From contig JAQGEQ010000140.1 of assembly GCA_034620365.1 (NCBI GenBank), forward strand, positions 124,001 to 188,000: 64,000 bases of DNA, in the 5' to 3' direction. Position 1 is the first letter of the stretch. Each line of letters opens with the position of its first letter. Source of the DNA: Pegea sp. RAD2-039 (taxonomy: Eukaryota > Chordata > Thaliacea > Salpida > Salpidae). The position numbers and the translations under genes were made by a program. The notes beneath the pieces are model-generated. The model had not been told where the DNA came from and did no database searches. It saw only the letters and a list, made by a program, of their open reading frames with translations. This document shows positions 6,234 to 64,000 of the stretch, in pieces.

Positions 6234-9067
6234 TTAAAATGGGAAATTTTCACATATGTCAGGTACACATGGTTGATAGCTGACTACTACTTGATCAATC
6301 CATTTATTCGTTCTTGCAACTTCTTTCCATTCATTTGTTACTTCATTGTAACATTCGACAATTTTAACAACATCATCTCTTACAGATAAACCTCCTGAAA
6401 CAATCAACAAGCTCATCACAATTATGCAAATTATTGTAAACATCATAAAAATTTTATTAAAAAGTTTTTCAATTCCAAACATCAGAAAAGTTTTACCAAA
6501 AACATAAATCTTCTTATTAAAGACAACAGCTTTTGGGAATCCTCTTGCATATTTCATACTTGCTACAAACTCCCAATTATCATTGAGGACATCGTATCTT
6601 TCAACAGTTTTTGAACCTTCTCCGTAATTCAAACCACCAATGGCGTAGATATAGTTGCCAAGTGTGACTACATCTTTAATGATTTTAAAATTAGTTATCA
6701 TCATAAGATCAAAACGTCATCGTGACGTCATCAGAAAATACCTAGATAACTTTGAGGTGTCAACATCGATTTTACAGAACTCCATTCGTCCCTCTGTGGA
6801 TCATATTTCTCCACACAAGAAACTGGGTTATTCAAATGGTAACCACCGACAACATACAACATCCGGTTGAAGACAGCACAACCGAAAAAGAGACAATATC
6901 TATTTAATGAAGCTCTTTGCGTCCATTCATCAGTGATCGGATCGTATCTGGAAATAACAAAAGAGTTTTTGGAATATAAAGTTTTGGTTGAAATGTCATT
7001 TCATCACTCACTTCATCAATCTGTTTTCAATACCACCTTGAAAAAGATACAATTCATTTTGAACAACTTCCATTTTCGGCCAATACAATCGACCGTCTAA
7101 ACTTTTGCACTTCTTCCACTCATTTAAAATTGGGTCGTATCTAGAAATGTGATGACGTCATATTTAGTTTGCAATGATGATGTCATCATTTGCTTCATGC
7201 TTCTAACCTTTCCAAATCACCATTCATCTTTATAATATAAATGAAACCGTTGATGACAACAGATCTCTCAGTTCTTGAAAGACATATCTTCGGAAGTTTA
7301 AACCAAACATCTGTTTCAGACAAACAGAACTTTACACTTTCCAAAGATTTCTCATCAGATCTATTGAATTTACCAATGATGTAGATCACCTGTGACGTCA
7401 TATTTCAGTGGTTGAAGTGAAAAGTATTTAATTAAATAATCTTACCTGCCGAATATCAAGTTGTCTTGGCTTACTTTCAATTGGGATGTAAGCTTTGAGG
7501 TCATCAAGGACCTTGCTGAGATACTCATAACAAGTATCTCTAATTACATTACAACTTTCTAATTTCATCGAAATAAAATTTGGATTTATTAAATGGCATC
7601 GTACCTAGAGAAATCACAATTTTATACTCACAAGTCTACAACTTTATAGTTTCTAGATACTTACGTTCTTAATTAATTTATTTAAACAATGTTTTCTTGA
7701 AGTTAAATCATATTTGATCCAATCTAAAAGAGCATTGAATACTTGGGATTCACAAATCACATGAAGATCATCTTTTGAAATTATTTTACAAATTACAGAG
7801 TCTGGTTGTAATTTGAATTCATCACTTTTTGAAATCTGGTAAATATCATGAGATCAATCAAAAACTTTTTCTTATTAAATATGAAAAGAACAAAATTAGT
7901 AGAAATAACGAAGCAAGTAAATATTTCATAAATATTTAAGTTTGATGAAGTAGAAAAAATCTTTCTACTTAAAATGTTTTAGCCAAGAAAATATCATTTC
8001 TCTATTTTCTTACTTCTATAAAGTTTTTTCCAATAAATTTTCCTATTTTCGTTGAAAGCTCCAAAAATCCATAATTCTCAGCAAATGTTGCAAATTCGAA
8101 GCAGTTGGAAATCTCTATTTGACTTTCCAAAAAGCTGTAATTGATAAAGTATAATTACAAAAACTATTGAAAGAAACTGATTTATAAAACTAGCTTACTT
8201 GCTACATAACTTCTCTAAGCCATTTATTTGAAATATGGAATCTGCAATCATCAGTTTCTCAACGTTTTCTTCATTGATTTGTATTTTGTTTGTGTAAATG
8301 TATCCTAGAAGATCAGAGAATACATTTGGGTCTACATCATTTAAGGTAACTTCACGAGAATATGATTCTTTAAATCCACCTTAATAAATTCAAATAGTTT
8401 TTTGTATATTCAGTTATTTTCACAATTGAAGTTGAATCTTGAATCTAACTTACCACGAAACATTGCTTCAAAATAAGGAGAAGCAGCAACTAATATACGT
8501 TTGTCACAATTGAAACTTCTTTCAAATTCATTTAATTTCACTTTGATGCTAACATCATGAATCTGAGAATCTTCAGAAGAGTCATTCAGTTTAAGTTGAT
8601 GAAGATTTGTACAATTATCAACTTCCGAAACTTCATCTCTAAAATTATTAAAAGTATAATTTACTTTAGTATCAAATTATAAATAAAGAATTAGAAACAA
8701 GTTTGATAAAAATAAAAAAGTGAATAATTAAAATCACAAATATTTATTTCAGTTCTTAAATTTATAAATAAATAAAACAATAAAATTTAAATTCTTCTAA
8801 ATAATTGAGTAACACTAAAATGACTCTAAAACAAATTAGAAATATAATAATTACAATTTAAAATTGATAAAATTTAAGTTATTAATCTTTTTAGATGCAA
8901 CATAAATAATTTTCTAATCTGTGTTTATTTTAAATAAAAAGTGAATTTAAAGTAAGTTTTCTTAGCGAACAATTTTAAGTGAAAACACAAAATTCTACTA
9001 ACCTTTTATCATCTGTAGGTGGCATAATTGAATCGAAAACAACTTTGCTATTTGATCTATCGACCAT
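6234..9067 (-). CDS. Copy 1: BTB-BACK-Kelch protein, intact, 578 aa
   Basis: Predicted Cullin-3 substrate adaptor of the KLHL family: BTB binds Cul3 and dimerises, BACK positions the propeller, kelch binds the target for ubiquitination. Eleven exons on the minus strand: 9003-9067, 8454-8638, 8199-8379, 8014-8134, 7665-7835, 7446-7604, 7208-7389, 7012-7140, 6742-6947, 6497-6673, 6234-6394; every junction is GT-AG and the lengths sum to 1737 nt in one open frame. BTB is about residues 49-144 (HDVSIKV, LVAASPYFEAMFRG, then FKE, which fits the phi-X-E Cul3 contact, and EVTLNDVDP). BACK is about 145-294 (NCFEFATFAENYGF, VFNALLDWIKYDLTSRK). Residues 295-578 hold about six kelch repeats with YDP...W and IYxxGG motifs. 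The start is the ATG of the short first exon, giving an N terminus MVDRSNSKVVFDS. No lesion found. BTB-BACK-Kelch identity is certain; the target and biological role are unknown. Confidence 0.92.
6395..6496 (-). other. Stop-free 102-nt intron of copy 1 (possible retained intron)
   Basis: Intron between exons 10 and 11, GTAAAAC to TTTCAG. Removing it joins IYVFG to G and restores a normal kelch diglycine. It is a multiple of three, has no in-frame stop, and would add 34 residues including a strongly hydrophobic run (TIICIIVMSLLIV) if kept. The intron call is firm because the kelch motif is only complete when it is spliced out; retention is speculative. Confidence 0.75.
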
Positions 9068-10225: not shown

Positions 10226-10400
10226 GAAAGTTTTTATTTTAATTTCATTAGCTTTCGACAAGGTCCATGTTTTGCTAACGTACGATAGCTAACAAGAGAC
10301 AAACGCTCTATAAATGGTAGCCTTAGTTTTAAAAGATAGCTTTGTATTATGCCAGATTAAATGTACCAGGTGTCCTACTGATGCAAATGCTGATATCAGC
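10226..10400 (-). pseudogene. RTE-like reverse transcriptase relic (unit 1)
   Basis: Homologue of the relic at 25709-25880, with a few substitutions (for example the LSYVSKTW segment is altered by a change at 10285-10292). Co-amplified with the array, not an independent insertion. Confidence 0.5.
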
Positions 10401-13072: not shown

Positions 13073-15920
13073 TTAAAATGGGAAATTTACACATATGTCA
13101 GGTACACATGGTTGATAGCTGACTATGACTTGATCAATCCATTCAGTCGTTCTTGCAACTTCTTTCCATTCATCTGTTACTTCATTGTAACATTCGACAA
13201 TTTTAACAACATCATCTCTTCCAGAAAAACCTCCTGAAACAATCAACAAGCTCATCACAATTATGCAAATTATTGGAAACATCATAAACATTTTATTTAA
13301 AAGTTTTTCAATTCCAAACATAAGAAAAGTTTTACCAAAAACATAAATCTTCTTATTAAAGACAACAGCTTTTGGAAATCTTCTTGCATATTTCATACTT
13401 GCTACAAACTCCCAATTATCATTGAGGACATCGTATCTTTCAACAGTTTTTAAAACTTCATATTCTTCATTATAACCACCAATGGCGTAGATATAGTTGC
13501 CAAGCGTGACTACAGCTTTAATGATTTTAGAATTAGTTATCATCATAAGATCAAAACGTCATCGTGAAGTCATCAGCAAATACCTGGAACACTTCGAGGT
13601 GTCAACATCGATCTTACAGAACTCCATTCGTCCTTCTGTGGATCATATTTATCCACACTAGCAAGTGAGTTATTCAAATCTTCGTCACCACCGACAACAT
13701 ACAACATCCGGTTGAAGACAGCACAACCGAAAAAGTAGCGATATCTATTTAATGAAGCTATTTGCGTCCATTCATCAGTGATAGGATCGTATCTGGAAAT
13801 AACATAATAGTTTTTGGCAAATGAAGTTTTGGTTGAAATCTCATTTCATCACTCACTTTATCAATCTAGTTTTATAACCACCTTGAAAAAGATACAATTC
13901 ATTTTCAATAACTCCAAAACTCGGCGAACACAATTTATCGTTTAAACTGTTGCACTTCTTCCACTCATTTAAAATTGGGTTGTATCTAGAAATGTGATGA
14001 CGTCATATTTAGTTTGCAATGATGATGTCATCATTTGCTTCATGCTTCTAACCTTTCCATATCACCATTCCTCTTTAACATAAAAATGAAACCGTTGATG
14101 ACAACAGATCCCCTAGTTTTTCGAAGACATATCTTTGGGAGTTTAAACAAAACATCTGTTTCAGACAAACGGAACTTTGCACTTTCCAAAGATTTCTTAT
14201 CAGATCTACCAGATTTATCAATGATGTAGATCACCTGTGACGTCATATGTCAGTGGTTGAAGTGAAAAGTATTTAATTAAATAATCTTACCTGCCGAATA
14301 TCAAGTTGTCTTGGCTTACTTTCAATTGGGATGTAAGCTTTCAGGTCATCGAGGACCTTGCTGAGATACTCATAACAAGTATCTCTAATTACATCACAAC
14401 TTTCTAATTTCATCGAAATAAAATTTGGATTTATCAAATGGCATCGTACCTAGAGAAATCACAATTTTATACTCACAAGTCTACAACTTTATAGTTTCTA
14501 GATACTTACGTTCTTAATTAATTTATTTAAACAATGTTTTCTTGAAGTTAAATCAGATTTGATCCAATCTAAAAGAGCATTGAATACTTGGGATTCACAA
14601 ATCACATGAAGCTCATCTTTTGAAATTATTTTAGAAATTACAGAGTCTGGTTGTAATTTAAATTCTTCACTTTTTGAAATCTGGTAAATATCATGAGATC
14701 AATCAAAAACTTTTTCTTATTAAATATAAAAAGAACAAAATCAGTAGAAATAAGGAAGCAAGTAAATATTTCATAAATATTTAAGTTTGATGAAGTAGAA
14801 AAAATCTTTCTACTTAAAATGTTTTTGCCAAAAAAATAACATTTCTCTATTTTCTTACTTCTATAAAGTTTTTTCCAATAAATTTTCCTATTTTCGTTGA
14901 AAGCTCCAAAAATCCATAATTCTCAGCAAATGTTGCAAATTCGAAGCAGTTGGAAATCTCTATTTGACTTTCCAAAAAGCTGTAATTGATAAAGTATAAT
15001 TACAAAAACTATTGAAAGAAACTGATTTGAAAAAACTAGCTTACTTGCTACATAACTTCTCTAAACCATTTATTTGAAACATGGCATCTGCAATCATCAG
15101 TTTCTCCACATTTTCTTCATTTATTTGTATTTTGTTTGTGTAAATGTATCCTAGAAGATTAGAGAATACATTTGGGTCTACCTCATTTAAGGTAACTTCC
15201 CGAGAATATGATTCTTTAAATCCACCACCTTAATAAATTCAAATAGTTTTTTGTTGATATATTCAGTTATTTTACAACTGAAGTTGAATCTTGAATCTAA
15301 CTTACCACGAAACATTGCTTCAAAATAAGGTGAAGCAGCAACTAATATACGTTTGTCACAATTGAAAGTTCTTTCAAATCCATTTAATTTCACTTTGATG
15401 CTAACATCATGAATCTGAGAATCTTCAGAAGAGTCATTCAGTTTAAGTTGATGAAGATTTGTACAATTATCAACTTCCGAAACTTCATCTCTAAAATTAT
15501 CAAAAGTATAATTTACTTTAGTATCAAATTATAATTAAAGAATTAGAAACAAGTTTGATAAAAATAAAAAAAGTGAATAATTAAAATCACAAATACTTAT
15601 TTCAGTTCTTAAATTTATAAATAAATAAAACAATAAAATTTAAATTCTTCTAAATTATTGAGTAACACTAAAATGACTCTAAAACAAATTAGAAATATAA
15701 TAATTACAAGTTAAAATTGATAAAATTTAAGTTATTAATCTTTTTAAATGCAACATAAATAATTTTCTAATCTGTGTTTATTTAAAATAAAAAGTGAATT
15801 TAAAGTAAGTTTACTTAGCGAACAATTTTAAGGGAAGACACAAAATTCTACTAACCTTTTATCATCTGTAGGTGGCATAATTGAATCGAAAATAACTTTG
15901 CTATTTAATCTATCTACCAT
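13073..15920 (-). CDS. Copy 2: BTB-BACK-Kelch protein, intact, 581 aa
   Basis: Exons 15856-15920, 15306-15490, 15045-15228, 14859-14979, 14510-14680, 14291-14449, 14053-14234, 13857-13985, 13584-13792, 13336-13515 and 13073-13233 (1746 nt, one frame). The three extra residues relative to copy 1 are all single-codon indels. There is a second glycine at the start of exon 3, one codon in the loop of the kelch repeat in exon 9 (VVGGDEDLNN against VVGGYHLNN), and one in the exon 10 loop (AIGGYNEEYEVLKTVERY). The BTB and BACK parts are nearly unchanged. Other kelch-edge differences include KLCSPS for RLYWPK in exon 8 and PRSVPA for PQSYLD at the exon 9-10 junction. The N terminus is MVDRLNSKVIFDS. 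No stop or splice lesion was found. It is a full-length predicted Cul3 adaptor, probably with a target range different from copy 1 (inferred from loop divergence). Confidence 0.92.
13234..13335 (-). other. Stop-free 102-nt intron of copy 2
   Basis: Same position, length and phase as in copy 1; open throughout. One substitution puts a proline in the hydrophobic run (MMFPIICIIVMSLLIV). Confidence 0.75.
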
Positions 15921-17831: not shown

Positions 17832-17987
17832 AAATTATTAGTAGAAGTAGTAGAGCAAGTGAAGCCTTTGATGTTTAGCATGAAGTACATTGTTGTCAGA
17901 TTAGTTTGCTTCAAAACTTTCTAGTTTGAGATCTTTTTTTGTCATGTTAAATTGAATTTTCGACAGAGACAACAAAAATGGAAAACA
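17832..17987. other. Remainder of copy 2 5' flank after the LINE
   Basis: Resumes the conserved unit sequence interrupted by the LINE (AGTAGTAGAGCA...GTGAAGCC and on). Non-coding. Confidence 0.5.
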
Positions 17988-21716: not shown

Positions 21717-24548
21717 TTAAAATGGGAAATTTTCACATATGTCAGGTACACATGGTTGATAGCTGACTATGACTTGATCAATACTTTCATTCGTTCTTGC
21801 AACTTCTTTCCATTTATTTGTTACTTCATTGTAACATTCGACAATTTTAACATCATCTTCTCTTTCAGAATGACTTCCTGAAACAATCAACAAGCTCATC
21901 ACAATTATGCAAATTATTGTAAACATCCTAAAAATTTTATTAAAAAGTTTTTCAATTCCAAACATAAGAAAAGTTTTACCAAAAACATAAATCTTCTTAT
22001 TAAATACAACAGCTTTTGGGAATCCTCTTGCATATTTCATACTTGCTACAAACTCCCAATTATCATTGAGGACATCGTATCTTTCAACAGTTTTTAAATC
22101 TTCTCTGTCATTCCAACCACCAATGGCGTAGATATAGTTGCCAAGCGTGACTACAGCTTTAATGATTTTAAAATTAGTTATCATCATAAGATCAAAACGT
22201 CATCGTGACGTCATCAGCAAATACCTAGATCAATTCGAGGTGTCAACATCGATTTTACAGAACTCCATTCGTCCCTCTGTGGATCATATTTCTCCACACT
22301 AGCAACTGGGTTATACAAATCGTAACCACCGACAACATACAACATCCGGTTGAAGACAGCACAACCGAAATTGCCACGAATTCTATTTAATGAAGCTCTT
22401 TGCGTCCATTCATCAGTGATCGGATCGTATCTGCAAATAACATAATAGTTTTTGACAAATGAAGTTTTGGTTGAAATCTCATTTCATCACTCACTTCATC
22501 AATTTAATTTTATAACCACCTTGAAAAAGATACAATTCATTTTCAATAACTCCAATTCTCGGCCGACACAATCGACCGTTTAAACTTTTGCACTTCTTCC
22601 ACTCATTTAAAATTGGGTCGTATCTAGAAATGTGATGACGTCATATTTAGTTTGCAATGATGATGTCATCATTTGCTTCGTGCTTCTAACCTTTCCATAT
22701 CACCATTCCACTTGAACATATAAATGAAACCGTTGATGACAACAGAACTTGAAATACATGAAAAACATATCTTTGGAAGTTTAAACCAAACATCCGTTTC
22801 AGACAAACAGAACTTTGCACTTTCCAAAGATTTGTCATCAGATCTATTGGATCTATCAACGATGTAGATCACCTGTGACGTCATATGTCAGTGGTTGAAG
22901 TGAAAAGTATTTAATTAAATAATCTTACCTGCCGAATATCAAGTTGTCTTGGCTTACTTTCAATTGAGATGCAAGCTTTGAGGTCATCGAGGACCTTGCT
23001 GAGATATTCATAACAAGTATCTCTAATTACATTACAACTTTCTAATTTCATCAAAATAAAATTTGGATTTATTAAATGGCATCGTACCTAGAGAAATCAC
23101 AATTTTATACTCACAAGTCTGCAACTTTATAGTTTCTAGATACTTACGTTCTTAATTAATTTATTTAAACAATGTTTTCTTGAAGTTAAATCATATTTGA
23201 TCCAATCTAAAAGAGCATTGAATATTTGGGATTCACAAATCACATGAAGCTCATCTTTTGAAATTATTTTACAAATTACAGAGTCTGGTTGTAATTTGAA
23301 TTCATCACTTTTTGAAATCTGGTAAATATCATGAAATCAATCAAAAAGTTTTCTTATTAAATATGAAAAGAACAAAATCAGTAGAAATAACGAAGCAAGT
23401 AAATATTTCATGAATATTTAAGTTTGATGAAGTAGAAAAAATCTTTCTACTTAAAATGTTTTAGCCAAGAAAATAACATTTCTCTATTTTCTTACTTCTA
23501 TAAAGTTTTTTCCAATAAATTTTTCAATCTTCGTTGGAAGCTCCAAAAATCCATAATTCTCAGTAAATGTTGCAAATTCGAAGCAGTTGGAAATCTCTAT
23601 TTGACTTTCCAAAAAGCTGTAATTGATAAAGTATAATTACAAAAACTATTGAAAGAAACTGAATTATAAAACTAGCTTACTTGCTACATAACTTCTCTAA
23701 ACCATTTATTTGAAATATGGAATCTGCAATCATCAGTTTCTCAACGTTTTCTTCATTGATTTGTATTTTTTTTGAGTAAATGTATCCTAGAAGATCAGAG
23801 AATACATTTGGGTCTACCTCATTTAAGGTAACTTCACGAGAATATGATTCTTTAAATCCACCTTAATAAATTCAAATAGTTTTTGGTTCATATATTCAGT
23901 TATTTTCACAATTGAAGTTGAATCTTGAATCTAACTTACCACGAAACATTGCTTCAAAATAAGGTGAAGCAGCAACTAATATACGTTTGTCACAATTGAA
24001 ACTTCTTTCAAATTCATTTAATTTCACTTTGATGCTAACATCATGAATCTGAGAATCTTCAGAAGAGTCATTCAGTTTAAGTTGATGAAGATTTGTACAA
24101 TTATCAACTTCCGAAACTTCATCTCTAAAATTATCAAAAGTATAATTTAATATCAAATTAAAAATAAAGAATCAGAAACAAGTTTGATAAAAATAAAAAA
24201 GTGAATAATTAAAATTACAAATACTTAATTCAGTTCTTAAATTTATAAATAAATAAAACAATAAAATTTAAATTCTTTTAAATGATTGAGTAACACTAAA
24301 ATGACTCTAAAACAAATTAGAAATATAATAATTACAAGTTAAAATTGATGAAATTTAAGTTATTAATCTTTTTAAATGCAACATAAATAATTTTCTAATC
24401 TGTGTTTATTTGAAATAAAAAGTGAATTTAAAGTAAGTTTTCTTAGCGAACAATTTTAAGTGAAGACACAAAATTCTACTAACCTTTTATCATCTGTAGG
24501 TGGCATAATTGAATCGAAAACAACTTTGCTATTTAATCTATCTACCAT
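21717..24548 (-). CDS. Copy 3: BTB-BACK-Kelch protein, intact, 578 aa
   Basis: Exons 24484-24548, 23940-24124, 23681-23861, 23496-23616, 23148-23318, 22929-23087, 22691-22872, 22495-22623, 22225-22430, 21980-22156 and 21717-21877 (1737 nt, one frame). BTB and BACK match copy 1 closely, with a few changes such as the YSKKIQI segment in exon 3. The kelch face differs: VIYIVDRSNRSDDK in the first strand-loop, CFSCISSSVV near the end of exon 7, LNRIRGNFGC in exon 9, PRIDLA at the exon 9-10 junction, AIGGWNDREDLKTVERY, and GSHSEREDD after the last intron. The exon 9 acceptor is TTTGCAG instead of TTTCCAG and still valid. No lesion found. Predicted full-length Cul3 adaptor. Confidence 0.92.
21878..21979 (-). 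other. Stop-free 102-nt intron of copy 3
   Basis: Same length, phase and open frame as in copies 1 and 2. Confidence 0.75.
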
Positions 24549-30381: not shown

Positions 30382-33254
30382 TTAAAATGGGAAATTTTCA
30401 CATATGTCAGGTACACATGGTTGATAACTGACTATGACTTGATAAATCCATTCATTCGTTCTTGCAACTTCTTTCCATTCGTTTGTTACTTCATTGTAAC
30501 ATTCGACAATTTCTACATCTTCTCCTCCATAATAACTACCTGAAACAATCAACAAGCTCATCACAATTATGCAAATTATTGTAAACATCATAAACATTTT
30601 ATCAAAAAGTTTTTCAATTCCAAACATAAGAAAAGTTTTACCAAAAACATAAATCTTCTTATTAAATACAACAGCAATTGGATGTTCTCTCGCATATTTC
30701 ATACTTGCTACAAACTCCCAATTATCATTGAGGACATCGTATCTTTCAACAGTTTTTAAATTTCCTTCTCCGTAATTCAAACCACCAATGGCGTAGATAT
30801 AGTTGCCAAGTGTGACTACAGCTTTAATGATTTTAGAATTAGTTATCATCATAAGATCAAAACGTCATCGTGACGTCATCAACAAATACCTAGATCAATT
30901 CGAGGTGTCAACATCGATTTTACAGAACTCCATTCGTCCCTCTGTGGATCATATTTCTCCACACAAGAAACTGGGTTATTCAAATCGTAACCACCGACAA
31001 TATACAACATCCGGTTGAAGACAGCACAACCGAACCAGTAACGAAGTGTATTTAATGAAGCTCTTTGCGTCCATTCATCAGTGATCGGATCGTATCTGGA
31101 AATAACATAATAGTTTTTGGCAAATGAAGTTTTGGTTGAAATGTCATTTCATCACTCACTTTATCTGTTTATTTCAAAATAATCAGAATCAGAATCATCA
31201 TCATCTGCTTCAAAATCATAATAATCTTCAAGAATGTACAATTCATTTTCAACAACTTCCATTTTCGGCATACAAGGCACATCTTCTAAACTCTTGCACT
31301 TCTTCCACTCATTTAAAATTGGGTTGTATCTAGAAATGTGATGACGTCATATTTAGTTTGCAATGATGATGTCATCATTTGCTTCGTGCTTCTAACCTTT
31401 CCATATCACCATTCCACTTTAACATATAAATGAAACCGTTTAGGACAACAGATCTTAAAGTTTCTGGAAGACATATCTTCGGAAGTTTAAACCAAACATC
31501 TGTTTCAGACAAACGGAACTTTGCACTTTCCAAAGATTTGTCATCAGATCTATAAGATCTATCAATGACGTAGATAACCTGTGACGTCATATGTCAGTGG
31601 TTGAAGTGAAAAGTATTTAATTAAATAATCTTACCTGCCGAATATCAAGTTGTCTTGGCTTACTTTCAATTGGGATGTAAGCTTTCAGGTCATCGAGGAC
31701 CTTGCTGAGATATTCATAACAAGTATCTCTAATTAGATCACAACTTTCTAATTTCATCGAAATAAAATTTGGATTTATAAAATGGCATCGTACCTAGAGA
31801 AATCACAATTTTATACTCACAAGTCTACAACTTTATAGTTTCTAGATACTTACGTTCTTAATTAACTTATTTAAACAATGTTTTCTTGAAGTTAAATCAT
31901 ATTTGATCCAATCTAAAAGAGCATTGAATACTTGGGATTCACAAATCACATGAAGCTCATCTTTTGAAATTATTTTACAAATTACAGAGTCTGGTTGTAA
32001 TTTGAATTCATCACTTTTTGAAATCAGGTAAATATCATGAGATCAATCAAAAAGTTTTCTTATTAAATATGAAAAGAACAAAATCAGTAGAAATAACGAA
32101 GCAAGTAAATATTTCATAAATATTTAAGTTTGATGAAGTAGAAAAACTCTTTCTACTTAAAATGTTTTAGCCAAGAAAATAACATTTCTCTATTTTCTTA
32201 CTTCTATAAAGTTTTTTCCAATAAATTTTCCTATTTTCGTTGAAAGCTCCAAAAATCCATAATTCTCAGTAAATGTTGAAAATCCAATACAGTTGGAAAT
32301 CTCTATTTGACTTTCCAAAAAGCTGTAATTGATAAAGTATAATTACAAAAACTATTGAAAGAAACTGATTAATAAAACTAGCTTACTTGCTACATAACTT
32401 CTCTAAACCATTTATTTGATAGATGGAATCTGCAATCATCAGTTTCTCAACGTTTTCTTCATTGATTTGTATTTTGTTTGTGTAAATGTATCCTAGAAGA
32501 TCAGAGAATACATTTGGGTCTACCTCATTTAAGGTAACTTCACGAGAATATGATTCTTTAAATCCACCACCTTAATAAATTCAAATAGTTTTTTGTATAT
32601 TCAGTTATTTTCACAATTGAAGTTGAATCTTGAATCTAACTTACCACGAAACATTGCTTCAAAATAAGGTGAAGCAGCAACTAATATACGTTTGTCACAA
32701 TTGAAACTTCTTTCAAATTCATTTAATTTCACTTTGATGCTAACATCATGAACCTGAGAATCTTCAGAAGAGTCATTCAGTTTAAGTTGATGAAGATTTG
32801 TACAATTATCAACTTCCGAAACTTCATCTCTAAAATTATCAAAAGTATAATTTAATATCAAATTAAAAATAAAGAATTAGAAACAAGTTTGATAAAAATA
32901 AAAAAAGTGAATAATTAAAATCAAAAATACTTATTTCAGTTCTTAAATTTATAAATAAATAAAACAATAAAATTTAAATTCTTCTAAATGATTGAGTAAC
33001 ACTAAAATGACTCTAAAACAAATTAGAAATATAATAATTACAAGTTAAAGTCGATAAAATTTAAGTTATTAATCTTTTTAGATGCAACATAAATAATTTT
33101 CTAATTTGTTTTTATTTTAAATAAAAAGTGAATTTAAAGTAAGTTTACTTAGCGAACAATTTTAAGTGAAGACACAAAATTCTACTAACCTTTTATCATC
33201 TGTAGGTGGCATAATTGAATCGAAAACAACTTTGCTATTTGATCTATCGACCAT
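30382..33254 (-). pseudogene. Copy 4: BTB-BACK-Kelch gene with lost acceptor and premature stop
   Basis: All eleven exons are present (exon 1 33190-33254, exon 8 31160-31329, last exons 30382 to about 30828) and most of the frame is open, but two lesions are visible. First, the acceptor of exon 5 is changed from CAG to CTG (32025-32026), so exon 5 of BACK cannot be joined normally. Second, exon 8 is 170 nt, which breaks the frame, and a TAA (31161-31163) sits just before its donor, cutting the protein after the first kelch repeats. The exon 8 loop carries a striking acidic insertion (EADDDDSDSDY). Later exons still read well (AIGGLNYGEGNLKTVERY, REHPIAVVF, GSYYGGEDVEIVECY), so the damage is recent. 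A truncated BTB-BACK product is conceivable if a cryptic acceptor is used. Confidence 0.8.
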
Positions 33255-38144: not shown

Positions 38145-39922
38145 TTAAAATGGGAAATTTACACATATGTCAGGTACACATGGTTGATAGCTGACTACTA
38201 CTTGATCAATCCATTCATTCGTTCTTGCAACTTCTTTCCATTCATTTGTTACTTCATTGTAACATTCGACAATTTTAACATCATATTCTCTTCCAGAATG
38301 ACCTCCTGAAACAATCAACAAGTTCATCACAATTATGCAGATTATTGTAAACATCATAAAAATTTTATTAAAGTTTTTCAATTCGAAACATAAGAAAAGT
38401 TTTACCAAAAACATAAATCTTCTTATTAAAGACAACAGCTTTTGGGAATCCTCTTGCATATTTCATACTTGCTACAAACTCCCAATTATCATTGAGGACA
38501 TCGTATCTTTCAACAGTCTTTAAATATCCTTCGTAATTCAAACCACCAATGGCGTAGATATAGTTGCCAAGCGTGACTACAGCTTTAATGATTTTAGAAT
38601 TAGTTATCATCATAAGATCAAAACGTCATCGTGACGTCATCAGCAAATACCTAGATAACTTCGAGGTGTCAACATCGATTTTACAGAACTCCATTCGTCC
38701 CTCTGTGGATCATATTTCTCCACACAAGAAACTGGGTTATACAAATCGTTGTTACCACCGACAACATACAACATCCGGTTGAAGACAGCACAACCGAAAA
38801 AGTCACGATATCTATTTAATGAAGCTCTTTCAGTCCATTCATCAGTGATCGGATCGTATCTGGAAATAACATAATAGTTTTTGGAATATAAAGTTTTGGT
38901 TGAAATGTCATTTCATCACTCACTTCATCAAATCTTTTCCATTCTGATCTTTAAAAAGATACAATTCATTTTGAACAACTTCCATTTTCGGCATACGCAA
39001 TTTATTGTCTAAACTTTTGCACTTCTTCCACTCATTTAAAATTGGGTTGTATCTAGAAATGTGATGACGTCATATTTAGTTTGCAATGATGATGTCATCA
39101 TTTGCTTCATGCTTCTAACCTTTCCAAATCACCATTCCACTTTAACATATAAATGAAACCGTTGATGACAACAGATCTCTCAGTTCTTGAAAGACATATC
39201 TTCGGAAGTTTAAACCAAACATCTGTTTCAGACAAACGGAACTTTTGACTTTCCAAAGATATCTCATCAAATCTATAAGATCCATCAATGATGTAGATCA
39301 CCTGTGACGTCATATGTCAGTGGTTGAAGTGAAAAGTATTTAATTAAATAATCTTACCTGCCGAATATCAAGTTGTCTTTGCTTACTTTCAATTGGGATG
39401 TAAGCTTTATCATGAACCTGAGAATCTTCAGAAGAATCATTCAGTTTAAGTTGATGAAGATTTGTACAATTATCAACTTCCGAAACTTCATCTCTAAAAT
39501 TATCAAAAGTATAATTTACTTTAGTATCAAATTAAAAATAAAGAATTAGAAACAAGTTTGATAAAAATAAAAAAGTGAATAATTAAAATCAAAAATACTT
39601 AATTCAGTTCTTAAATTTATAAATAAATAAAACAATAAAATTTAAATTCTTTTAAATGATTGAGTAACACTAAAATGACTCTAAAACAAATTAGAAATAT
39701 AATAATTACAAGTTAAAATCGATAAAATTTAAGTTATTAATCTTTTTAAATGCAACATAAATAATTTTCTAATTTGTGTTTATTTTAAATAAAAAGTGAA
39801 CTTAAAGTAAGTTTACTTAGCGAACAATTTTAAGTGAAGACACAAAATTCTACTAAACTTTTATCATCTGTAGGTGGAATAATTGAATCGAAAACAACTT
39901 TACTATTTGATCTATCTACCAT
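38145..39922 (-). pseudogene. Copy 5: kelch-only derivative, BTB and BACK deleted in frame
   Basis: A deletion of about 1.06 kb (size taken from copy 4) joins exon 2 just before the BTB core to exon 6 near the end of BACK, at 39408/39409. The join is in frame: DSQVHD continues into KAYIPIESK. The fusion exon is 39358-39493. All kelch exons are open (exon 8 38924-39052 with FKDQNGKDL, exon 9 with VVGGNNDLYNPV, exon 10 with AIGGLNYEGYLKTVERY, exon 11 with GGHSGREYD). The predicted protein would be a short N terminus plus a complete propeller with no Cul3-binding part. However, the exon 1 donor GT is changed to TT (39857); using the neighbouring GT one base upstream would shift the frame. The last intron has lost 2 nt (100 nt), which is harmless only if it is spliced. 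I class it as a pseudogene, with a kelch-only decoy as the alternative if translation starts elsewhere. Confidence 0.75.
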
Positions 39923-43164: not shown

Positions 43165-43269
43165 ATGAAATTTCTTGACAAGTTCACCGACAAACTTTGT
43201 TCTTTGCAAATTATAGCAGTTAGCATCGTCCAAGAAATACCTCTAGGTTACCTTAAGATATTTCTATAG
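43165..43269 (+). other. Small coding-like frame in module Z copy 2
   Basis: Same 34-codon frame as at 27231-27335, unchanged. Unassigned. Confidence 0.25.
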
Positions 43270-46320: not shown

Positions 46321-49195
46321 TTAAAATGGGAAATTTTCACAGATGTCAGGTACACATGGTTGATAACTGACTATGACTTCATCAATCCTTTCATTCGTTC
46401 TTGCAACTTCTTTCCATTCGTTTGTTACTTCATTGTAACATTCGACAATTTTATCATCATCTATTCCAGAATAACTTCCTGAAACAATCAACAAGCTCAT
46501 CACAATTATGCAAATTATTGTAAACGTCATAAACATTTTATTAAAAAGTTTTTCAATTCCAAACATAAGAAAAGTTTTACCAAAAACATAAATCTTCTTA
46601 TTAAATACAACAGCTTTTGGAAATCCTCTTGCATATTTCATACTTGCTACAAACTCCCAATTATCATTGAGGACATCGTATCTTTCAACAGTCTTTAAAT
46701 ATTCTCCTTCATTCCAACCACCAATGGCGTAGATATAATTGCCAAGTGTGACTACAGCTTTAATGATTTTAAAATTAGTTACCATCATAAGATCAAAACG
46801 TCATCGTGACGTCATTTACAAGTACCTGGTCCACTTCGAGGTGTCAACATCGATTTTACAGAACTCCATTCGTCCCTCTGTGGATCATATTTATCCACAC
46901 AAGAAACTGGGTCAAACAAATCTTCGTCACCACCGACAACATACAACATCCGGTTGAAGACAGCACAACCGAAAAAGTTAAGAAATCTATTTAATGAAGC
47001 TCTTTGCGTCCATTCATCAGTGATCGGATCGTATCTGGAAATAACATAATAGTTTTTGACAAATGAAGTTTTGGTTGAAATCTCATTTCATCACTCACTT
47101 TACTATTCCAGTTTTATTTAAATAATGAGAATCATCATAATAATCTTTAAGAATGTACAATTCATTTTCAATAACTCCAAATCTCGGCCAACATATTCGA
47201 CCGTCTAAATACAAGTTATCTTCTAAACTTTTGCACTTCTTCCACTCATTTAAAATTGGGTCGTATCTAGAAATGTGATGACGTCATATTTAGTTTGCAA
47301 TCATGATGTCATCATTTGCTTCATGCTTCTAACCTTTCCATATCACCATTCCACTTGAACATATAAATGAAACCGTTTAGGACAACAGATCTTGAAATAC
47401 GTGAAAAACATATCTTTGGGAGTTTAAACCAAACATCTGTTTCAGACAAACAGAACTTTGCACTTTCCAAAGATTTCTCATCAGATCTATCGGATTCATC
47501 AACGATGTAGATCACCTGTGACGTCATATGTCAGTGGTTGAAGTGAAAAGTATTTAATTAAATAATCTTACCTGCCGAATATCAAGTTGTCTTGGCTTAC
47601 TTTCAATTGGGATGTAAGCTTTGAGGTCATCGAGGACCTTGCTGAGATACTCATAACAAGTATCTCTAATTACATCACAACTTTCTAATTTCATCGAGAT
47701 AAAATTTGGATTTATCAGATGGCATCGTACCTAGAGAAATCACAATTTTATACTCACAAGTCTACAACTTTATAGTTTCTAGATACTTACGTTCTTAATT
47801 AACTTATTTAAACAATGTTTTCTTGAAGTTAAATCATATTTGATCCAATCTAAAAGAGCATTGAATACTTGGGATTCACAAATCACATGAAGCTCATCTT
47901 TTGAAATTAGTTTACAAATTACAGAGTCTGGTTGTAATTTGAATTCATCACTTTTTGAAATCTGGTAAAAATCATGAAATCAATCAAAAAGTTTTCTTAT
48001 TAAATATGAAAAGAACAAAATCAGTAGAAATAAGGAAGCAAGTAAATATTTCATAAATATTTAAGTTTGATGAAGTAGAAAAAATCTTTCTACTTAAAAT
48101 GTTTTAGCCAAGAAAATAACATTTCTCTATTTTCTTACTTCTATAAAGTTTTTTCCAATAAATTTTCCTATTTTCGTTGAAAGCTCCAAAAATCCCTAAT
48201 TCTCAGCAAATGTTGCAAATTCGAAGCAGTTGGAAATCTCTATTTGACTTTCCAAAAAGCTGTAATTGATAAAGCATAATTACAAAAACTATTGAAAGAA
48301 ACTGATTTGAAAAAAATAGCTTACTTGCTACATAAATTCTCTAAACCATTTATTTGAAATATGGAATCTGCAATCATCAGTTTCTCAACGTTTTCTTCAT
48401 TGATTTGTATTTTGTTTGTGTAAATGTATCCTAGAAGATCAGAGAATACATTTGGGTCTACCTCATTTAAGGTAACTTCACGAGAATATGATTCTTTAAA
48501 TCCACCACCTTAATAAATTCAAATAGTTTTTTGTATATTCAGTTATTTTCACAATTGAAGTTGAATCTTGAATCTAACTTACCACGAAACATTGCTTCAA
48601 AATAAGGTGAAGCAGCAGCTAATATACGTTTGTCACAATTGAAACTTCTTTCAAATTCATTTAATTTCACTTTGATGCTAACATCATGAACCTGAGAATC
48701 TTCAGAAGAGTCATTCAGTTTAAGTTGATGAAGATTTGTACAATTATCAACTTCCGAAACTTCATCTCTAAAATTATCAAAAGTATAATTTACTTTAGTA
48801 TCAAATTAAAAATAAAGAATTAGAAACAAGTTTGATAAAATAAAAAAGTGAATAATTAAAATCAAAAATATTTATTTCAGTTCTTAAATTTATAAATAAT
48901 TAAAACAATAAAATTTAAATTCTTTTAAATGATTGAGTAACACTAAAATGACTCTAAAACAAATTATAAATATAATAATTACAAGTTAAAATTGATAAAA
49001 TTTAAGTTATTAATCTTTCTAGATGCAACATAAATAATTTTCTAATCTGTTTTTATTTAAAATAAAAAGTGAATTTAAAGTAAGTTTACTTAGCGAACAA
49101 TTTTAAGTGAAGACACAAAATTCTACTAACCTTTTATCATCTGTAGTTGGCATAATTGAATCGAAAACAACTTTGCTATTTAATCTATCTACCAT
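46321..49195 (-). pseudogene. Copy 6: BTB-BACK-Kelch gene with a nonsense codon in BACK
   Basis: Exon 1 is 49131-49195; all exons and splice sites are present. In exon 4 the conserved AENYGF of BACK reads AEN-stop-GF: TAT is changed to TAG at 48196-48198 on the plus strand. Translation would end after BTB and a small part of BACK, about residue 168. The rest of the frame is open. Exon 8 is 168 nt (47099-47266), 13 codons longer than in copies 1-3, with an added NLYLDGR-type segment and a YYDDSHYLNKT loop. Exon 10 has AIGGWNEGEYLKTVERY and exon 11 has GSYSGIDDDKIVECY. A single point change separates this copy from an open frame, so a very recent loss or a sequencing or assembly error should be considered. 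Confidence 0.8.
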
Positions 49196-53185: not shown

Positions 53186-56069
53186 TTAAAATGGGAAATT
53201 TACACATATGTCAGGTACACATGGTTGATAGCTGACTACTACTTGATCAATCCATTCATTCGTTCTTGCAACTTCTTTCCATTCATTTGTTACTTCATTG
53301 TAACATTCGACAATTTTAACAACATCATCTCTTACAGATAAACCTCCTGAAACAATCAACAAGTTCATCACAATTATGCAAATTATTGTAAACATCCTAA
53401 AAATTTTATTAAAAAGTTTTTCAATTCCAAACATAAGAAAAGTTTTACCAAAAACATAAATCTTCTTATTAAAGACAACAGCTTTTGGGCATCTCCTTGC
53501 ATATCTCATACTTGCTACAAACTCCCAATTATCATTGAGGACATCGTATCTTTCAACAGTCTTTAAATATGCTCCTTCATTATTACCACCAATGGCGTAG
53601 ATATAGTTGCCAAGTGTGACTACATCTTTAATGATTTTAAAATTAGTTACCATCATAAGATCAAAACGTCATCGTGACGTCATCAACAAATACCTAGAAA
53701 ACTTTGAGGTGTCAACATCGATTTTACAGAACTCCATTCGTCCCTCTGTGGATCATATTTCTCCACACAAGAAACTGGGTAAAACAAATCTTCGTTACCA
53801 CCGACAACATACAACATCCGGTTGAAGACAGCACAACCGAAAAAGTTAAGAAATCTATTTAATGAAGCTCTTTGCGTCCATTCATCAGTGATCGGATCGT
53901 ATCTGGAAATAACATAATAGTTTTTGACAAATGAAGTTTTGGTTGAAATCTCATTTCATCACTCACTTTACTATTCTAGTTTTTATTTAAATAATGAGAA
54001 TCATCATAATAATCTTTAAGAATGTACAATTCATTTTCAATAACTCCAAATGTCGTCCAACACATTCGACCGTCTAAATACAAGATATCTTCTAAACGTT
54101 TGCACTTCTTCCACTCATTTAAAATTGGGTCGTATCTAGAAATGTGATGACGTCATATTTAGTTTGCAATGATGATGTCATCATTTGCTTCATGCTTCTA
54201 ACCTTTCCATATCACCATTCCACTTGAACATATAAATGAAACCGTTTAGGACAACAGATCTTGAAATACGTGAAAAACATATCTTTGGGAGTTTAAACCA
54301 AACATCTGTTTCAGACAAACAGAACTTTGCACTTTCCAAAGATTTCTCATCAGATCTACCAGATCCATCAATGATGTAGATCACCTGTGACGTCATATGT
54401 CAGTGGTTGAAGTGAAAAGTATTTAATTAAATAATCTTACCTGCCGAATATCAAGTTGTCTTGGCTTACTTTCAATTGGGATGTAAGCTTTGAGGTCATC
54501 GAGGACCTTGCTGAGATACTCATAACAAGTATCTCTAATTACATCACAACTTTCTAATTTCATCGAGATAAAATTTGGATTTATCAGATGGCATCGTACC
54601 TAGAGAAATCACAATTTTATACTCACAAGTCTACAACTTTATAGTTTCTAGATACTTACGTTCTTAATTAACTTATTTAAACAATGTTTTCTTGAAGTTA
54701 AATCATATTTGATCCAATCTAAAAGAGCATTGAATACTTGGGATTCACAAATCACATGAAGCTCATCTTTTGAAATTATTTTACAAATTACAGAGTCTGG
54801 TTGTAATTTGAATTCATCACTTTTTGAAATCTGGTAAAAATCATGAGATCAATCAAAAACTTTTTCTTATTAAATATGAAAAGAACAAAATCAGTAGAAA
54901 TAACGAAGCAAGTAAATATTTCATAAATATTTAAGTTTGATGAAGTAGAAAAAATCTTTCTACTTAAAATGTTTTAGTCAAGAAAATAACATTTCTCTAT
55001 TTTCTTACTTCTATAAAGTTTTTTCCAATAAATTTTCCTATTTTCGTTGAAAGCTCCAAAAATCCATAATTCTCAGCAAATGTTGCAAATTCGAAGCAGT
55101 TGGAAATCTCTATTTGACTTTCCAAAAAGCTGTAATTGATAAAGTATAATTACAAAAACTATTGAAAGAAACTGAATTATAAAACTAGCTTACTTGCTAC
55201 ATAACTTCTCTAAGCCATTTATTTGAAATATGGAATCTGCAATCATCAGTTTCTCAACGTTTTCTTCATTGATTTGTATTTTGTTTGTGTAAATGTATCC
55301 TAGAAGATCAGAGAATACATTTGGGTCTACCTCATTTAAGGTAACTTCACGAGAATATGATTCTTTAAATCCACCACCTTAATAAATTCAAATAGTTTTT
55401 TGTTGATATATTCAGTTATTTTTACAATTGAAGTTGAATCTTGAATCTAACTTACCACGAAACATTGCTTCAAAATAAGGTGAAGCAGCAACTAATATAC
55501 GTTTGTCACAATTGAAACTTCTTTCAAATTCATTTAATTTCACTTTGATGCTAACATCATGAATCTGAGAATCTTCAGAAGAGTCATTCAGTTTAAGTTG
55601 ATGAAGATTTGTACAATTATCAACTTCCGAAACTTCATCTCTAAAATTATTAAAAGTATAATTTACTTTAGTATCAAATTATAATTAAAGAATTAGAAAC
55701 AAGTTTGATAAAATAAAAAAAGTCAATAATTAAAATCAAAAATACTTAATTCAGTTCTTAAATTTATAAATAAAAAAAACAATAAAATTTAAATTCTTCT
55801 AAATGATTGAGTAACACTAAAATGACTCTAAAACAAATTAGAAATATAATAATTACAAGTTAAAATCGATGAAATTTAAGTTATTAATCTTTTTAAATGC
55901 AACATAAATAATTCTCTAATCTGTTTTTATTTTAAATAAAAAGTGAATTTAAAGTAAGTTTACTTAGCGAACAATTTTAAGTGAAGACACAAAATTCTAC
56001 TAACCTTTTATCATCTGTAGGTGGGATAATTGAATCGAAAACAACTTTGCTATTTAATCTATCTACCAT
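53186..56069 (-). pseudogene. Copy 7: BTB-BACK-Kelch gene with frameshift and stop in exon 8
   Basis: Exon 1 is 56005-56069; BTB and BACK exons are open and carry the extra glycine codon at exon 3. Exon 8 (53967-54135) is 169 nt against 168 nt in copy 6. One extra A (T on the plus strand, in the run at 53980-53984) shifts the frame and reaches a TAG at 53976-53978, three codons before the donor. The predicted product is BTB plus BACK plus about one and a half kelch repeats, roughly 410 residues. The downstream exons are still open (AIGGNNEGAYLKTVERY, RRCPKAVVF, GGLSVRDDVVKIVECY as in copy 1). It is a recent pseudogene or a truncated adaptor lacking most of the target-binding domain. Confidence 0.8.
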
Positions 56070-57230: not shown

Positions 57231-57405
57231 GAACGTTTTTATTTTAATTTCATTAGCTTTCGACAAGGTCCATGTTTTGCTAACGTACGATAGCTTACAA
57301 GAGACAAACGCTCTATAAATGGTCGCCTTAGTTTTAAAAGATAGCTTTGTATTATGCCAGATTAAATGTACCAGGTGTCCTACTGATGCAAATGCTGATA
57401 TCAGC
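57231..57405 (-). pseudogene. RTE-like reverse transcriptase relic (unit 7)
   Basis: Eighth copy of the relic; same strand and position relative to the kelch gene as in all other units. Confidence 0.5.
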
Positions 57406-58973: not shown

Positions 58974-60010
58974 AGCTGAGTTTGTAGATCCCTTATCATC
59001 AATGAATCCTTTATCAGGAGATCCTTTATCTCTTCTTGCTAATGAAAATATGAGTCAAAAGGTTTCTTTCTAAATGTTATTTTTTATTTGATGGTAATTG
59101 TGTTAATTTGACATTTTATAAAATATCATTTTTAACATATATATAAATATTGTAATATAATAAAAAAACGTTAGAAAGAATCAATTATTTCCAGATTATG
59201 AATGAAATAACTGATTATGAAGATGATAAGTTTGATGTAGATGAATGGGAATCTTATAAAATGAAAATATTAAATATATTTACAATATAACATTTCTTAG
59301 GTACACTAGTATTCGAACGAATCTTGTCTAAATGTACTGAAATGTCTTCAAGTTCGTTCACTGGATTCTGTCTTGTTTATCAAAGAACGCTCATGAGGTT
59401 CTATGATTGTTGTGTCAACTACTTCTTCTCAATTACGATTTTAAAGGAGACATTGACAGAAGTCCTGGATAAATGCAAGAACTTTGATCACAGTCTTCTT
59501 CTCATCAATTGTTGCCTGGTCACTTTCAGGAGTGGTTATATCGCAGCGAGATCCTTTTCAATTTGTCGTTAAATCTGTTCATTTGAAGAAACTGTGGTTC
59601 ACAAGGTCCATCTCAACAATTTATCTATTACTTTTCTCAACTAAGAAATTTAGTTGCTGGCATTGGAAGCGGTAGTATGATCATGGGTTTATTTAGATGG
59701 ATTAGCTTGATCATATATAATGAAAGTGTTGCTAGAGCGTGAAGCTTTAACATTAGAAGAAGCAGTGACAGTGAAAGATGCCTGGTGGCATACTTCGGGA
59801 CTGGAAGATTATATAAAGCTTCAGAAGAAATTAAGCTTACACGTAGAAGAGTTTCTTTGTGGGGTTTTATGGGATATTATTCATATGTTGACGAAGAATC
59901 TTTCTACAAAATGCTCGATTTTAGTCGTAAGTAAAAGCATTCAAAATTAACTTAAACAGAAAATAAAAATCGTTTTTTTGCAGCACAAGAAGAGGACATA
60001 CAGTTTTGAT
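58974..60010 (+). pseudogene. VPS35L-like pseudogene, module W copy 2
   Basis: Near-identical second copy of the pseudogene at 3581-4616. Exon A is 58974-59061 and exon B starts at 59195 and ends in a TAA after KMKILN. The TLVFERILSKC exon follows an acceptor at about 59300, and the LEDYIKL/WDIIHML piece is at 59720-59928. The same internal loss and frame changes are present, so the gene was already broken before the module was duplicated. Small differences from copy 1 include NFDHS for NSDHS and a C-to-T type change that gives a TGA in one frame near 59740. Confidence 0.6.
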
Positions 60011-61628: not shown

Positions 61629-64000
61629 TTAAAATGGGAAATTTTCACATATGTCAGGTACACATGGTTGATAGCTGACTATGACTTGATTAATCTTTTC
61701 TTTCGTTCTTGCAACTTCTTTCCATTCATTTGTTACTTCATTGTAACATTCGACAAATTTAACATCATCTTCTCTTTCAGAAAAACCTCCTGAAACAATC
61801 AACAAGTTCATCACAATTATGCAAATTATTGTAAACATCATAAAAATTTTATTAAAAAGTTTTTCAATTCCAAACATAAGAAAAGTTTTACCAAAAAGAT
61901 AAATCTTCTTATTAAAGACAACAGCTTTTGGTTCTCCTCTTGCATATTTCATACTTGCTACAAACTCCCAATTATCATTGAGGACATCGTATCTTTCAAC
62001 AGTTTTTAAACCTTCTCCGTCACCATAACCACCAATGGCGTAGATATAGTTGCCAAGCGTGACTACAGCTTTAATGATTTTAGAATTAGTTATCATCATA
62101 AGATCAAAACGTCATCGTGACGTCATCAGCAAATACCTAGATAACATCGAGGTGTCAACATCGATTTTACAGAACTCCATTCGTCCCTCTGTGGATCATA
62201 TTTCTCCACACAAGAAACTGGTTTATTCAAATGGTAACCACCGACAACATACAACATCCGGTTGAAGACAGCACAACCGAAATTGTCACGAATTCTATTT
62301 GATGAAGCAATTTGCGTCCATTCATCAGTGATTGGATCGTATCTGGAAATAACATAATAGTTTTTGGCAAATGAAGTTTTGGTTAAAATCTCATTTCATC
62401 ACTCACTTTACTGTTCTGTTATTTCTTAAATGAGAATCATCATAATAATCTTGAAAAATGTACAATTCATTTTCATTAACTCCCAATCTCGGCAAAAACA
62501 TTCGACCGTCTAAATACAATTTATCTTCTAAACTTTTGCACTTCTTCCACTCATTTAAAATTGGGTCGTATCTAGAAATATGATGACGTCATATTTAGTT
62601 TGCAATGATGATGTCATCATTTGCTTCATGCTTCTAACCTTTCCAAATCACCATAATTCTTTAACATATAAATGAAACCATTTATGACCACAGATCTTGA
62701 AATATTTCCAAGACACAGCTTCGGAAGTTTAAACCAAACAAACGTTTCAGACAAACGGAACTTTGCACTTTTCAAAGATTTCTCATCAGATCTATTGAAT
62801 ATATCAACGATGTAGATCACCTGTGACGTCATATGTCAGTCATTGAAGTGAAAAGTATTTAATTAAATAATCTTACCTGCCGAATATCAAGTTGTCTTGG
62901 CTTACTTTCAATTGGGATGTAAGCTTTCAGGTCATTGAGGACCTTGCTGAGATATTCATAACAAGTATCTCTAATTACATCACAACTTTCTAATTTCATC
63001 GAGATAAAATTTGGATTTATTAAATAGCATCGTACCTATAGAAATCACAATTTTATACTCACAAGTCTACAACTTTACAGTTTCTAGATACTTACGTTCT
63101 TAATTAACTTATTTAAACAATGTTTTCTTGAAGTTAAATCATATTTGATCCAATCTAAAAGAGCATTGAATACTTGGGATTCACAAATCACATGAAGCTC
63201 ATCTTTTGAAATTAGTTTACAAATTACAGAGTCTGGTTGTAATTTGAATTCATCACTTTTTGAAATCTGGTAAAAATCATGAGATCAATCAAAAACTTTT
63301 TCTTATTAAATATGAAAAGAACAAAATCAGTAGAAATAACGAAGCAAGTAAATATTTCATGAATATTTAAGTTTGATGAAGTAGAAAAAATCTTTCTACT
63401 TAAAATGTTTTAGCCAAGAAAATAACATTTCTCTATTTTCTTACTTCTATAAAGTTTTTTCCAATAAATTTTTCAATCTTCGTTGGAAGCTCCAAAAATC
63501 CATAATTCTCAGTAAATGTTGCAAATTCGAAGCAGTTGGAAATCTCTATTTGACTTTCCAAAAAGCTGTAATTGATAAAGTATAATTACAAAAACTATTG
63601 AAAGAAACTGAATTATAAAACTAGCTTACTTGCTACATAACTTCTCTAAACCATTTATTTGAAATATGGAATCTGCAATCATCAGTTTCTCAACGTTTTC
63701 TTCATTGATTTGTATTTTTTTTGAGTAAATGTATCCTAGAAGATCAGAGAATACATTTGGGTCTACCTCATTTAAGGTAACTTCACGAGAATATGATTCT
63801 TTAAATCCACCACCTTAATAAATTCAAATAGTTTTTTGTATATTCAGTTATTTTCACAATTGAAGTTGAATCTTGAATCTAACTTACCACGAAACATTGC
63901 TTCAAAATAAGGTGAAGCAGCAACTAATATACGTTTGTCACAATTGAAACTTCTTTCAAATTCATTTAATTTCACTTTGATGCTAACATCATGAATCTGA
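61629..64000 (-). CDS. Copy 8: BTB-BACK-Kelch protein, 5' end beyond the window, intact so far
   Basis: Exons 2 (63888-64000, partial), 3 (63630-63813), 4 (63445-63565), 5 (63096-63266), 6 (62877-63035), 7 (62639-62820), 8 (62407-62571), 9 (62137-62342), 10 (61892-62068) and 11 (61629-61789). All are GT-AG and one open frame; exon 1 is outside. Exon 8 is 165 nt and in frame, of the long-loop type seen in copies 4, 6 and 7 (KLYLDGRMFLPRLG, QDYYDDSHLRNN), making this the only intact member of that sub-type here. Other kelch-face residues: VIYIVDIFNRSDEK, CLGNISRSVV, SSNRIRDNFGC, AIGGYGDGEGLKTVERY, RGEPKAVVF, GGFSEREDDVKFVECY, RTKEKINQVIV. BTB and BACK are close to copy 3 (same YSKKIQI change), while module W links it to copy 1, so the array has exchanged segments. 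Confidence 0.9.
61790..61891 (-). other. Stop-free 102-nt intron of copy 8
   Basis: Same 102-nt, open, frame-preserving intron as in copies 1-3, also conserved in length in copies 0, 4, 6 and 7. Confidence 0.75.

Follow-up and report, generated by a model that had tools for sequence, protein, structure and literature searches.

The present study concerns a stretch of 64,000 nucleotides (the window; C97:124001-188000) from the genome of Pegea sp. RAD2-039, an assembly of 105.7 Mb in 387 contigs, in which a gene encoding a BTB-BACK-Kelch protein is repeated in tandem. The gene has 11 exons and is present in eight copies, all on the minus strand, in DNA with a G+C content of 22-31% (2-kb steps); positions below are those of the window unless a contig is named. 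Four of the copies are intact. The first, w1 (9067..6234), encodes 578 residues in an open spliced model with GT/AG at every intron (exons 9067-9003, 8638-8454, 8379-8199, 8134-8014, 7835-7665, 7604-7446, 7389-7208, 7140-7012, 6947-6742, 6673-6497 and 6394-6234). The reading frame is also open in w2 (13073..15920), to which the exons were transferred by alignment, and in w3 (21717..24548), in which Pfam recognizes BTB, BACK and Kelch_1, and w8 (61629..64000) is intact, although all of exon 1 and some of exon 2 lie past the window, with its ATG at the window-equivalent position 64496. Three copies are disrupted: w4 (30382..33254) carries a 4-bp deletion in exon 8 that shifts the spliced reading frame, w6 (46321..49195) an in-frame stop in exon 4, and w7 (53186..56069) a frameshift in exon 8 from 1 bp inserted at an A homopolymer, which might be an assembly error. 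In w5 (38145..39922; C97:162145-163922), exon 2 is fused to exon 6 at 39409/39408, and the Kelch part is open and matched by Pfam, but the BTB and BACK domains are gone in frame, with no Pfam match for either. Thus, the eight tandem copies announced in an earlier note on this DNA are present, although not all of them are whole.

The window is part of a longer array, which spans approximately 156 kb from about C97:103.7k to the end of the contig at 259.6k. Sixteen minus-strand copies were modelled there (g00 and w1-w15), of which 14 retain the full set of 11 exons; the array also contains one plus-strand copy, one copy cut off by the contig end, and relics. A frame open from end to end is present in ten of the 16 (in w13 the ATG is missing), and a further two are open as genes for the Kelch part only. 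The exon 2/exon 6 fusion of w11 (C97:213503-215284), outside the window, is identical to the in-frame fusion of w5, and the plus-strand copy (C97:103677-105562) shows a fusion of the same two exons at another point. Related loci were also found on C116, C81, C14, C23, C238, C264 and C341; all 11 exons were matched in six relatives, two each on C116, C81 and C14, and exons 4-11 were present in the stretches fetched from C23, C238, C264 and C341, that from C264 also containing part of exon 3. The family is therefore multi-copy, as the best 40 of 250 first-look candidates scored with an exon-5 DNA query were all 96-100% identical. With the Kelch_1 profile, which detects any kind of kelch gene, the best 150 of 912 candidates were scored and all 150 were above the cut-off.

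The domain content places these genes in the KLHL type. In w3, Pfam reports BTB (PF00651, E 2.7e-25), BACK (PF07707, E 2.9e-23) and Kelch (PF01344, E 1.4e-41, three stretches above threshold), and BTB and BACK were also found in w1 with a query that carried a surplus R where exons 1 and 2 join. Six b-strands, corresponding to six blades, were marked by motif labels drawn in this analysis; on visual inspection, the first blades seem degenerate. Because the N-terminus is polar by eye, without an evident signal peptide, the proteins are probably intracellular; an insect salivary effector was considered and dropped together with the idea of an insect source, and no hydrophobic N-terminal signal peptide was seen by eye. 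In KLHL proteins, the BTB domain docks on CUL3 and the target face of the Kelch domain is turned towards the substrate. Sites were placed on the propeller through homology to KEAP1, and PMC4668279 describes the substrate surface of KEAP1 as formed by the DA and BC loops.

The differences among copies are very concentrated in short stretches, with in-frame indels among them, and these stretches are the target-face loops. Mean entropy was 0.94 bits in these loops, 0.14 in the opposite-face turns and 0.23 in the strands, and none of 309 circular shifts of the labels matched the observed difference of 0.73 (highest, 0.62). In the 12 sequences from C97, the DA/BC loops showed 1.14 bits with 69 of 80 columns variable, the AB/CD turns of the opposite face 0.14 bits with 8 of 34 columns variable, and the strands 0.22 bits with 51 of 161 columns varying at least once. 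The pattern was replicated at nine loci of other contigs, where entropy was 1.36, 0.24 and 0.36 for the same three classes. The loop labels were drawn by hand on w3 after the alignment had been seen, which might have introduced bias. At 15 sites equivalent to KEAP1 contact positions, mean entropy was 2.06 versus 0.64 over the 199 mapped sites, and none of 20000 random sets was as high. This comparison is independent of the hand-drawn labels; three of its positions (Arg415, Arg483 and Ser508) come from PMC4668279, and the other 12 from general knowledge of KEAP1. The loop strings quoted in the earlier note (e.g. LNYGEGS, YNEEYEV, FSGRDDVV and SYLD) were recovered in open reading frames (ORFs) or spliced translations, w7 carrying the last-loop string of w1, LSVRDDVV, and its statement that differences pile up at loops agrees with these results. 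Its description of the kelch strand cores as almost unchanged is correct insofar as they vary weakly, but they are not invariant.

The divergence of exons and introns provides a second view of the same pattern. Among 14 copies (disrupted copies included, w5 and w11 left out), the mean pairwise difference ranged from 0.8 to 3.8% across the ten introns and from 1.2 to 4.9% across exons 1-6, and it amounted to 11.7, 15.6, 8.1, 7.2 and 7.5% in exons 7, 8, 9, 10 and 11, respectively. The Kelch exons thus diverge approximately 2-5 times more than the intervening introns, and exons evolving faster than their introns are a classic sign of positive selection. The fastest-diverging Kelch part, exons 7-9, lies in w1 at 6742..7389 on the minus strand (mean p 0.117, 0.156 and 0.081 versus 0.008-0.038 in the ten introns). 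Among ten open copies, the nonsynonymous (dN) and synonymous (dS) divergences were 0.111 and 0.090 in exons 7-11, and 0.023 and 0.047 in exons 1-6, with introns at 0.027-0.028; dN/dS was 0.72 for exon 10 as a whole and 1.06-2.23 for the remaining Kelch exons. Among nine copies, the target-face loops reached a dN of 0.337 and a dS of 0.126, a pairwise dN/dS of 2.67, versus a dN of 0.042 and a dS of 0.083 (dN/dS 0.5) in the Kelch part outside these loops. The loop dN is 12 times the intron divergence, and dS in loop codons with an unchanged amino acid was 0.049. For exons 1-6, dN/dS was 0.36-0.49, and these exons differ about as much as the introns do (dN 0.023 versus 0.027). The "frozen scaffold" of the earlier note is therefore too strong an expression: the likeness of the scaffold is explained mainly by the youth and homogenization of the copies, with moderate purifying selection in addition.

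Codon models located the selection in the same loops. In the comparison of M7 and M8 (20 sequences, 251 columns, one tree), which the earlier note had suggested as a check, twice the log-likelihood difference (the likelihood-ratio statistic, LRT) was 336, with 8% of sites at an omega of 7.3, and the comparison of M1a and M2a gave 328. A posterior above 0.95 was reached at 17 sites, 16 of which fall in the DA/BC loops, a class that accounts for 58 columns out of 251. With exon-specific trees, the M7/M8 LRT was 232 and all 12 selected sites lay in the DA/BC loops; single exons gave values of 19.5-95.4. The signal was present in the 11 copies of C97 alone (189.5) and in the nine from other contigs alone (109.9). 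One-ratio omega was 1.33 for loops, 0.44 for opposite-face turns and 0.66 for strands. In exons 1-6, which encode BTB and BACK, no signal of positive selection was detected among nine copies (LRT 3.7, p 0.16, omega 0.36). Positive selection was thus found in the target domain and not in the docking domain, and neither a uniform dN/dS nor a scatter of variable sites over buried strands, the two outcomes that the earlier note had named as contrary to its claim, was observed: dN/dS is uneven along the protein, the strands vary weakly, and omega above 1 is almost confined to the target-face loops. For these models, 251 of 324 columns were kept after the removal of gapped columns and their neighbours. 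Tree shapes and relative branch lengths were taken from IQ-TREE, a single scale factor was applied to them, and the models were run in custom code rather than PAML. The disrupted copies w4, w6, w7 and w14 and L003, a near copy of L002, were left out of the selection tests, and w13 was retained despite its missing ATG; w12, a near copy of w3, was excluded from the models and the loop dN/dS but included in the ten-copy dN/dS, the label-shift comparison and the C97 entropies.

The copies have not evolved independently. Distance matrices of adjacent loops are nearly uncorrelated (0.14), and those of adjacent introns likewise (0.12), although short introns carry little information; because neighbouring segments are so poorly correlated, gene conversion among the copies is likely. 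A reassortment specific to the loops was rejected, as the introns are equally poorly correlated. Since gene conversion inflates site-model tests, neutral data were simulated with recombination (20 sets, a new tree every 12 codons, and a two-class null with values near the M1a fit). These sets, analysed with one tree, gave LRT values of 10-65 and fitted omegas of 1.0-2.9. Chi-square p values are consequently too small and were not taken literally; nevertheless, the observed value of 336 is five times the largest neutral value. The simulations calibrate this value, and not the 232 obtained with exon trees or the single-exon values.

A second amplification involves CUL3, the partner on which KLHL receptors dock. 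A cullin profile search produced 101 matches from the best 71 of 94 candidates. A full-length CUL3 lies on C278 (N-terminus at L036, C-terminus at L039/L041, also L058); the assignment was made by visual inspection and from its 91% DNA identity with the amplified copies. The last two exons of the copy on C96, used as a DNA query, were found at 13 places, comprising C278 at 91% and twelve CUL3-like copies at 97-100% (L046-L057; eight on C92, three on C134 and one on C96). These copies are CUL3-specific, as the best PDB matches for the last two exons of L047 were Cullin-3 (E 1.9e-41) and then Cullin-4A (E 1.7e-24). In 11 of the 12, the reading frame of the last exon meets a stop at a common place, ten codons past the equivalent of human residue 492 of 768; for L055, the exon end was not found by the search. 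On C92, C134 and C96, no PF00888 match was obtained past position ~473 (71 of 94 candidates scored) and no match to the neddylation domain PF10557 (11 of 11 scored), results that a too-diverged downstream exon might also produce. In eight of the 12 copies, the eight exon pieces that were inspected are free of disruptions. Coding divergence among the 12 was 0.0215 and non-coding divergence 0.0249, and the ratio of nonsynonymous to synonymous differences (pN/pS) among the eight undisrupted copies was 0.58, with codons carrying two or three differences all counted as nonsynonymous. Between L032 and L033, coding sequence (24/1397) was not less divergent than non-coding sequence (9/731). Strong constraint was thus not found; the constraint is weak, and the truncated copies may be young or decaying. 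The human Cul3(1-427) construct of PMC3401178 is likewise an N-terminal part of Cul3 without the C-terminal region, although it is a laboratory construct and the genomic frames described here reach ten codons beyond the equivalent of human residue 492. Further partial cullin-like loci, with their N-terminal parts matched, were observed on C203 (two), C369 and C370.

Herein, we propose that the array belongs to a lineage-specific tandem family of substrate receptors of the Cullin-3 RING ligase (CRL3), of the KLHL type, that is diversifying against changing targets, and we assign this reading a probability of about 0.72. We infer CUL3 docking of these receptors by analogy with KLHL proteins: purifying selection maintains BTB and BACK, by which the copies would dock on the ligase, and the targets would be marked by ubiquitylation. 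Strong diversifying selection acts on the target face of the six-bladed propeller, at its DA and BC loops, and gene conversion would homogenize introns and scaffold and reassort segments. In other words, many receptors would share one docking module, each with a fast-changing target face, and the changing targets would most likely be intracellular proteins of foreign or selfish origin. The diversification of adaptors at the target face, as suggested earlier, is supported by the codon models (LRT 336 versus 10-65 under neutrality); from this diversifying face to a role in immunity or conflict is a step that we infer. The data leave the driver undecided among foreign, selfish and own fast-evolving proteins. 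We also hypothesize that the truncated CUL3-like copies would bind receptors without RBX1 and thereby act as brakes. In an extended form of this idea, which we regard as speculative and unlikely, dozens of Cul3 receptors with loops selected and reassorted by conversion would constitute a germline-encoded intracellular kelch repertoire against foreign or selfish proteins, balanced by dominant-negative truncated CUL3 that would hold receptors without RBX1, and by the Kelch-only copies w5 and w11, which would hold targets without ubiquitylation.

Several alternatives and several observations have to be weighed against this proposal. The receptors might be diversifying against changing targets of the organism itself, such as sex-specific, germline or other fast-evolving proteins, rather than against parasites or viruses. 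This explanation shares the ligase and the selection with the preferred one and overlaps with it in probability, and it would leave an identical molecular signature, as the sequence data are silent on the target; the copy count (on C97, 16 modelled and 14 of these complete in their 11 exons, with more on C116, C14 and elsewhere) suits a repertoire better than one coevolving pair, although this is an argument and not a test. We consider own targets, taken as a share of their own, possible but rather unlikely. That the array is mainly a graveyard of amplified, mostly unexpressed copies is suggested by the disrupted w4, w6 and w7, by w5 without BTB and BACK, and by the relics, but appears improbable given the ten of 16 C97 copies open over their full length (w13 without an ATG), the two further open Kelch-only copies, and the purifying selection on exons 1-6 (omega 0.36).

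Without adaptation, relaxed constraint on exposed loops combined with gene conversion from older divergent copies might account for the raised dS of the Kelch exons (0.090 versus 0.028 in introns), for the shuffling of loops and introns alike among copies, and for the three broken copies out of eight in the window. However, relaxation cannot push dN past dS, as observed in the loops (dN/dS 2.67, with dN 12 times the intron divergence), and the neutral recombining simulations remained at or below 65 versus 336 in LRT and at 1.0-2.9 versus 7.3 in omega, which makes this explanation very improbable and strongly disfavoured. The tight concentration of changes in short stretches, in-frame indels included, would also be expected from targeted hypermutation of the loops, but loop codons with unchanged amino acids have a dS (0.049) below that of the rest of the Kelch part (0.082), even if this subset was chosen for not changing, and the opposite-face turns, themselves shorter, are quiet; we find this mechanism hardly credible. 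Other observations weigh against diversifying receptors as the explanation. Gene conversion spreads variants among copies and makes sites non-independent, single-exon LRTs are uncalibrated with four of five inside the range of the neutral simulations, and the one-ratio omega of the loops (1.33) is lower than their pairwise value (2.67). The dS of the Kelch exons exceeds the intron divergence, and part of the variation therefore predates what the introns suggest; of the eight copies in the window, half are either broken or devoid of BTB, and part of the array is therefore decaying.

Comparable expansions are familiar from other ligase adaptors. Expansions of F-box and MATH-BTB (BATH) adaptors in nematodes and the F-box families of plants are said to have been described by Thomas in 2006. 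In these large lineage-specific adaptor families, too, the docking domain is conserved and the substrate domain is under positive selection. Positive selection on ligase adaptors was thus already known for F-box and MATH-BTB families. Their target domains are not kelch propellers, whereas the propeller described here allows residues to be placed on known contact positions and is accompanied by amplified CUL3-like copies without a recognizable C-terminal third. Vertebrate KLHL genes are mostly single and conserved, in contrast to the many young copies with variable loops observed here. The array nevertheless shares its domain order, six blades and DA and BC target face with KEAP1 and other KLHL proteins, as given in PMC4668279. 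In PMC8665587, C-terminal dN/dS peaks above 1.5 are reported for paralogue pairs of F-box genes (73 of 95 in C. elegans and 25 of 37 in C. briggsae); purifying selection is described for the N-terminus of Caenorhabditis F-box proteins and positive selection for their C-terminus, and foreign proteins are proposed as targets. High-copy Kelch-like and BTB families also form strain-specific gene sets in Rhizophagus irregularis (PMC8647823, in excerpt), although this organism is a fungus, Kelch-like and BTB/POZ are separate high-copy classes, and the excerpt does not mention loop selection. Searches of open-access literature, partly in excerpt, showed no report of a kelch family whose target-face loops are under selection, and none of truncated CUL3 in amplified form. 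The location of the selected residues on contact positions known from KEAP1 makes the equation of target face and arms-race face testable per residue. If the targets are foreign, the family would represent a cell-internal recognition repertoire in an animal. The parallel amplification of CUL3-like copies with no C-terminal third would point to regulation at the level of the entire ligase class.

Several minor features were also observed. The remains of one more copy (pieces of exons 1, 2, 10 and 11 on the minus strand, detected by exon blastn) occupy positions 1..760 and leave the window at its low end. At 17042-17557, ORFs overlap on both strands; Pfam gives no match for them, and the plus-strand one resembles by eye the reverse-transcriptase end of a long interspersed nuclear element (LINE). 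One ORF occurs twice within the duplicated unit, at 3896-4177 and 59291-59572; the former and the neighbouring ORF at 4192-4539 have no Pfam match, the copy at 59291-59572 lying outside that scan. Elsewhere in the assembly, TTAGGG repeats, which are not the telomere repeat of insects or nematodes, stand at the start of three contigs (C108:4-56, C125:1-41 and C142:22-44), with long runs on C139 and C342, which makes an insect or a typical nematode improbable as the source. Searches of the assembly gave no match to the arthropod cuticle domain PF00379 or the insect receptor family 7tm_6, although neither was detected in any control genome and these two results do not demonstrate absence; COX1 and a bdelloid spliced leader likewise gave no match. 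The 18S stretch L030 seems, on visual inspection, to be that of an animal but derived. Fragments of 18S ribosomal DNA (rDNA) occur in short repeated units at L029 (C278) and L031 (C1:6130301-6132100), and on C1 a partial rDNA copy adjoins a TCATCAACAAAATTA-type satellite approximately 3 kb from the contig end.

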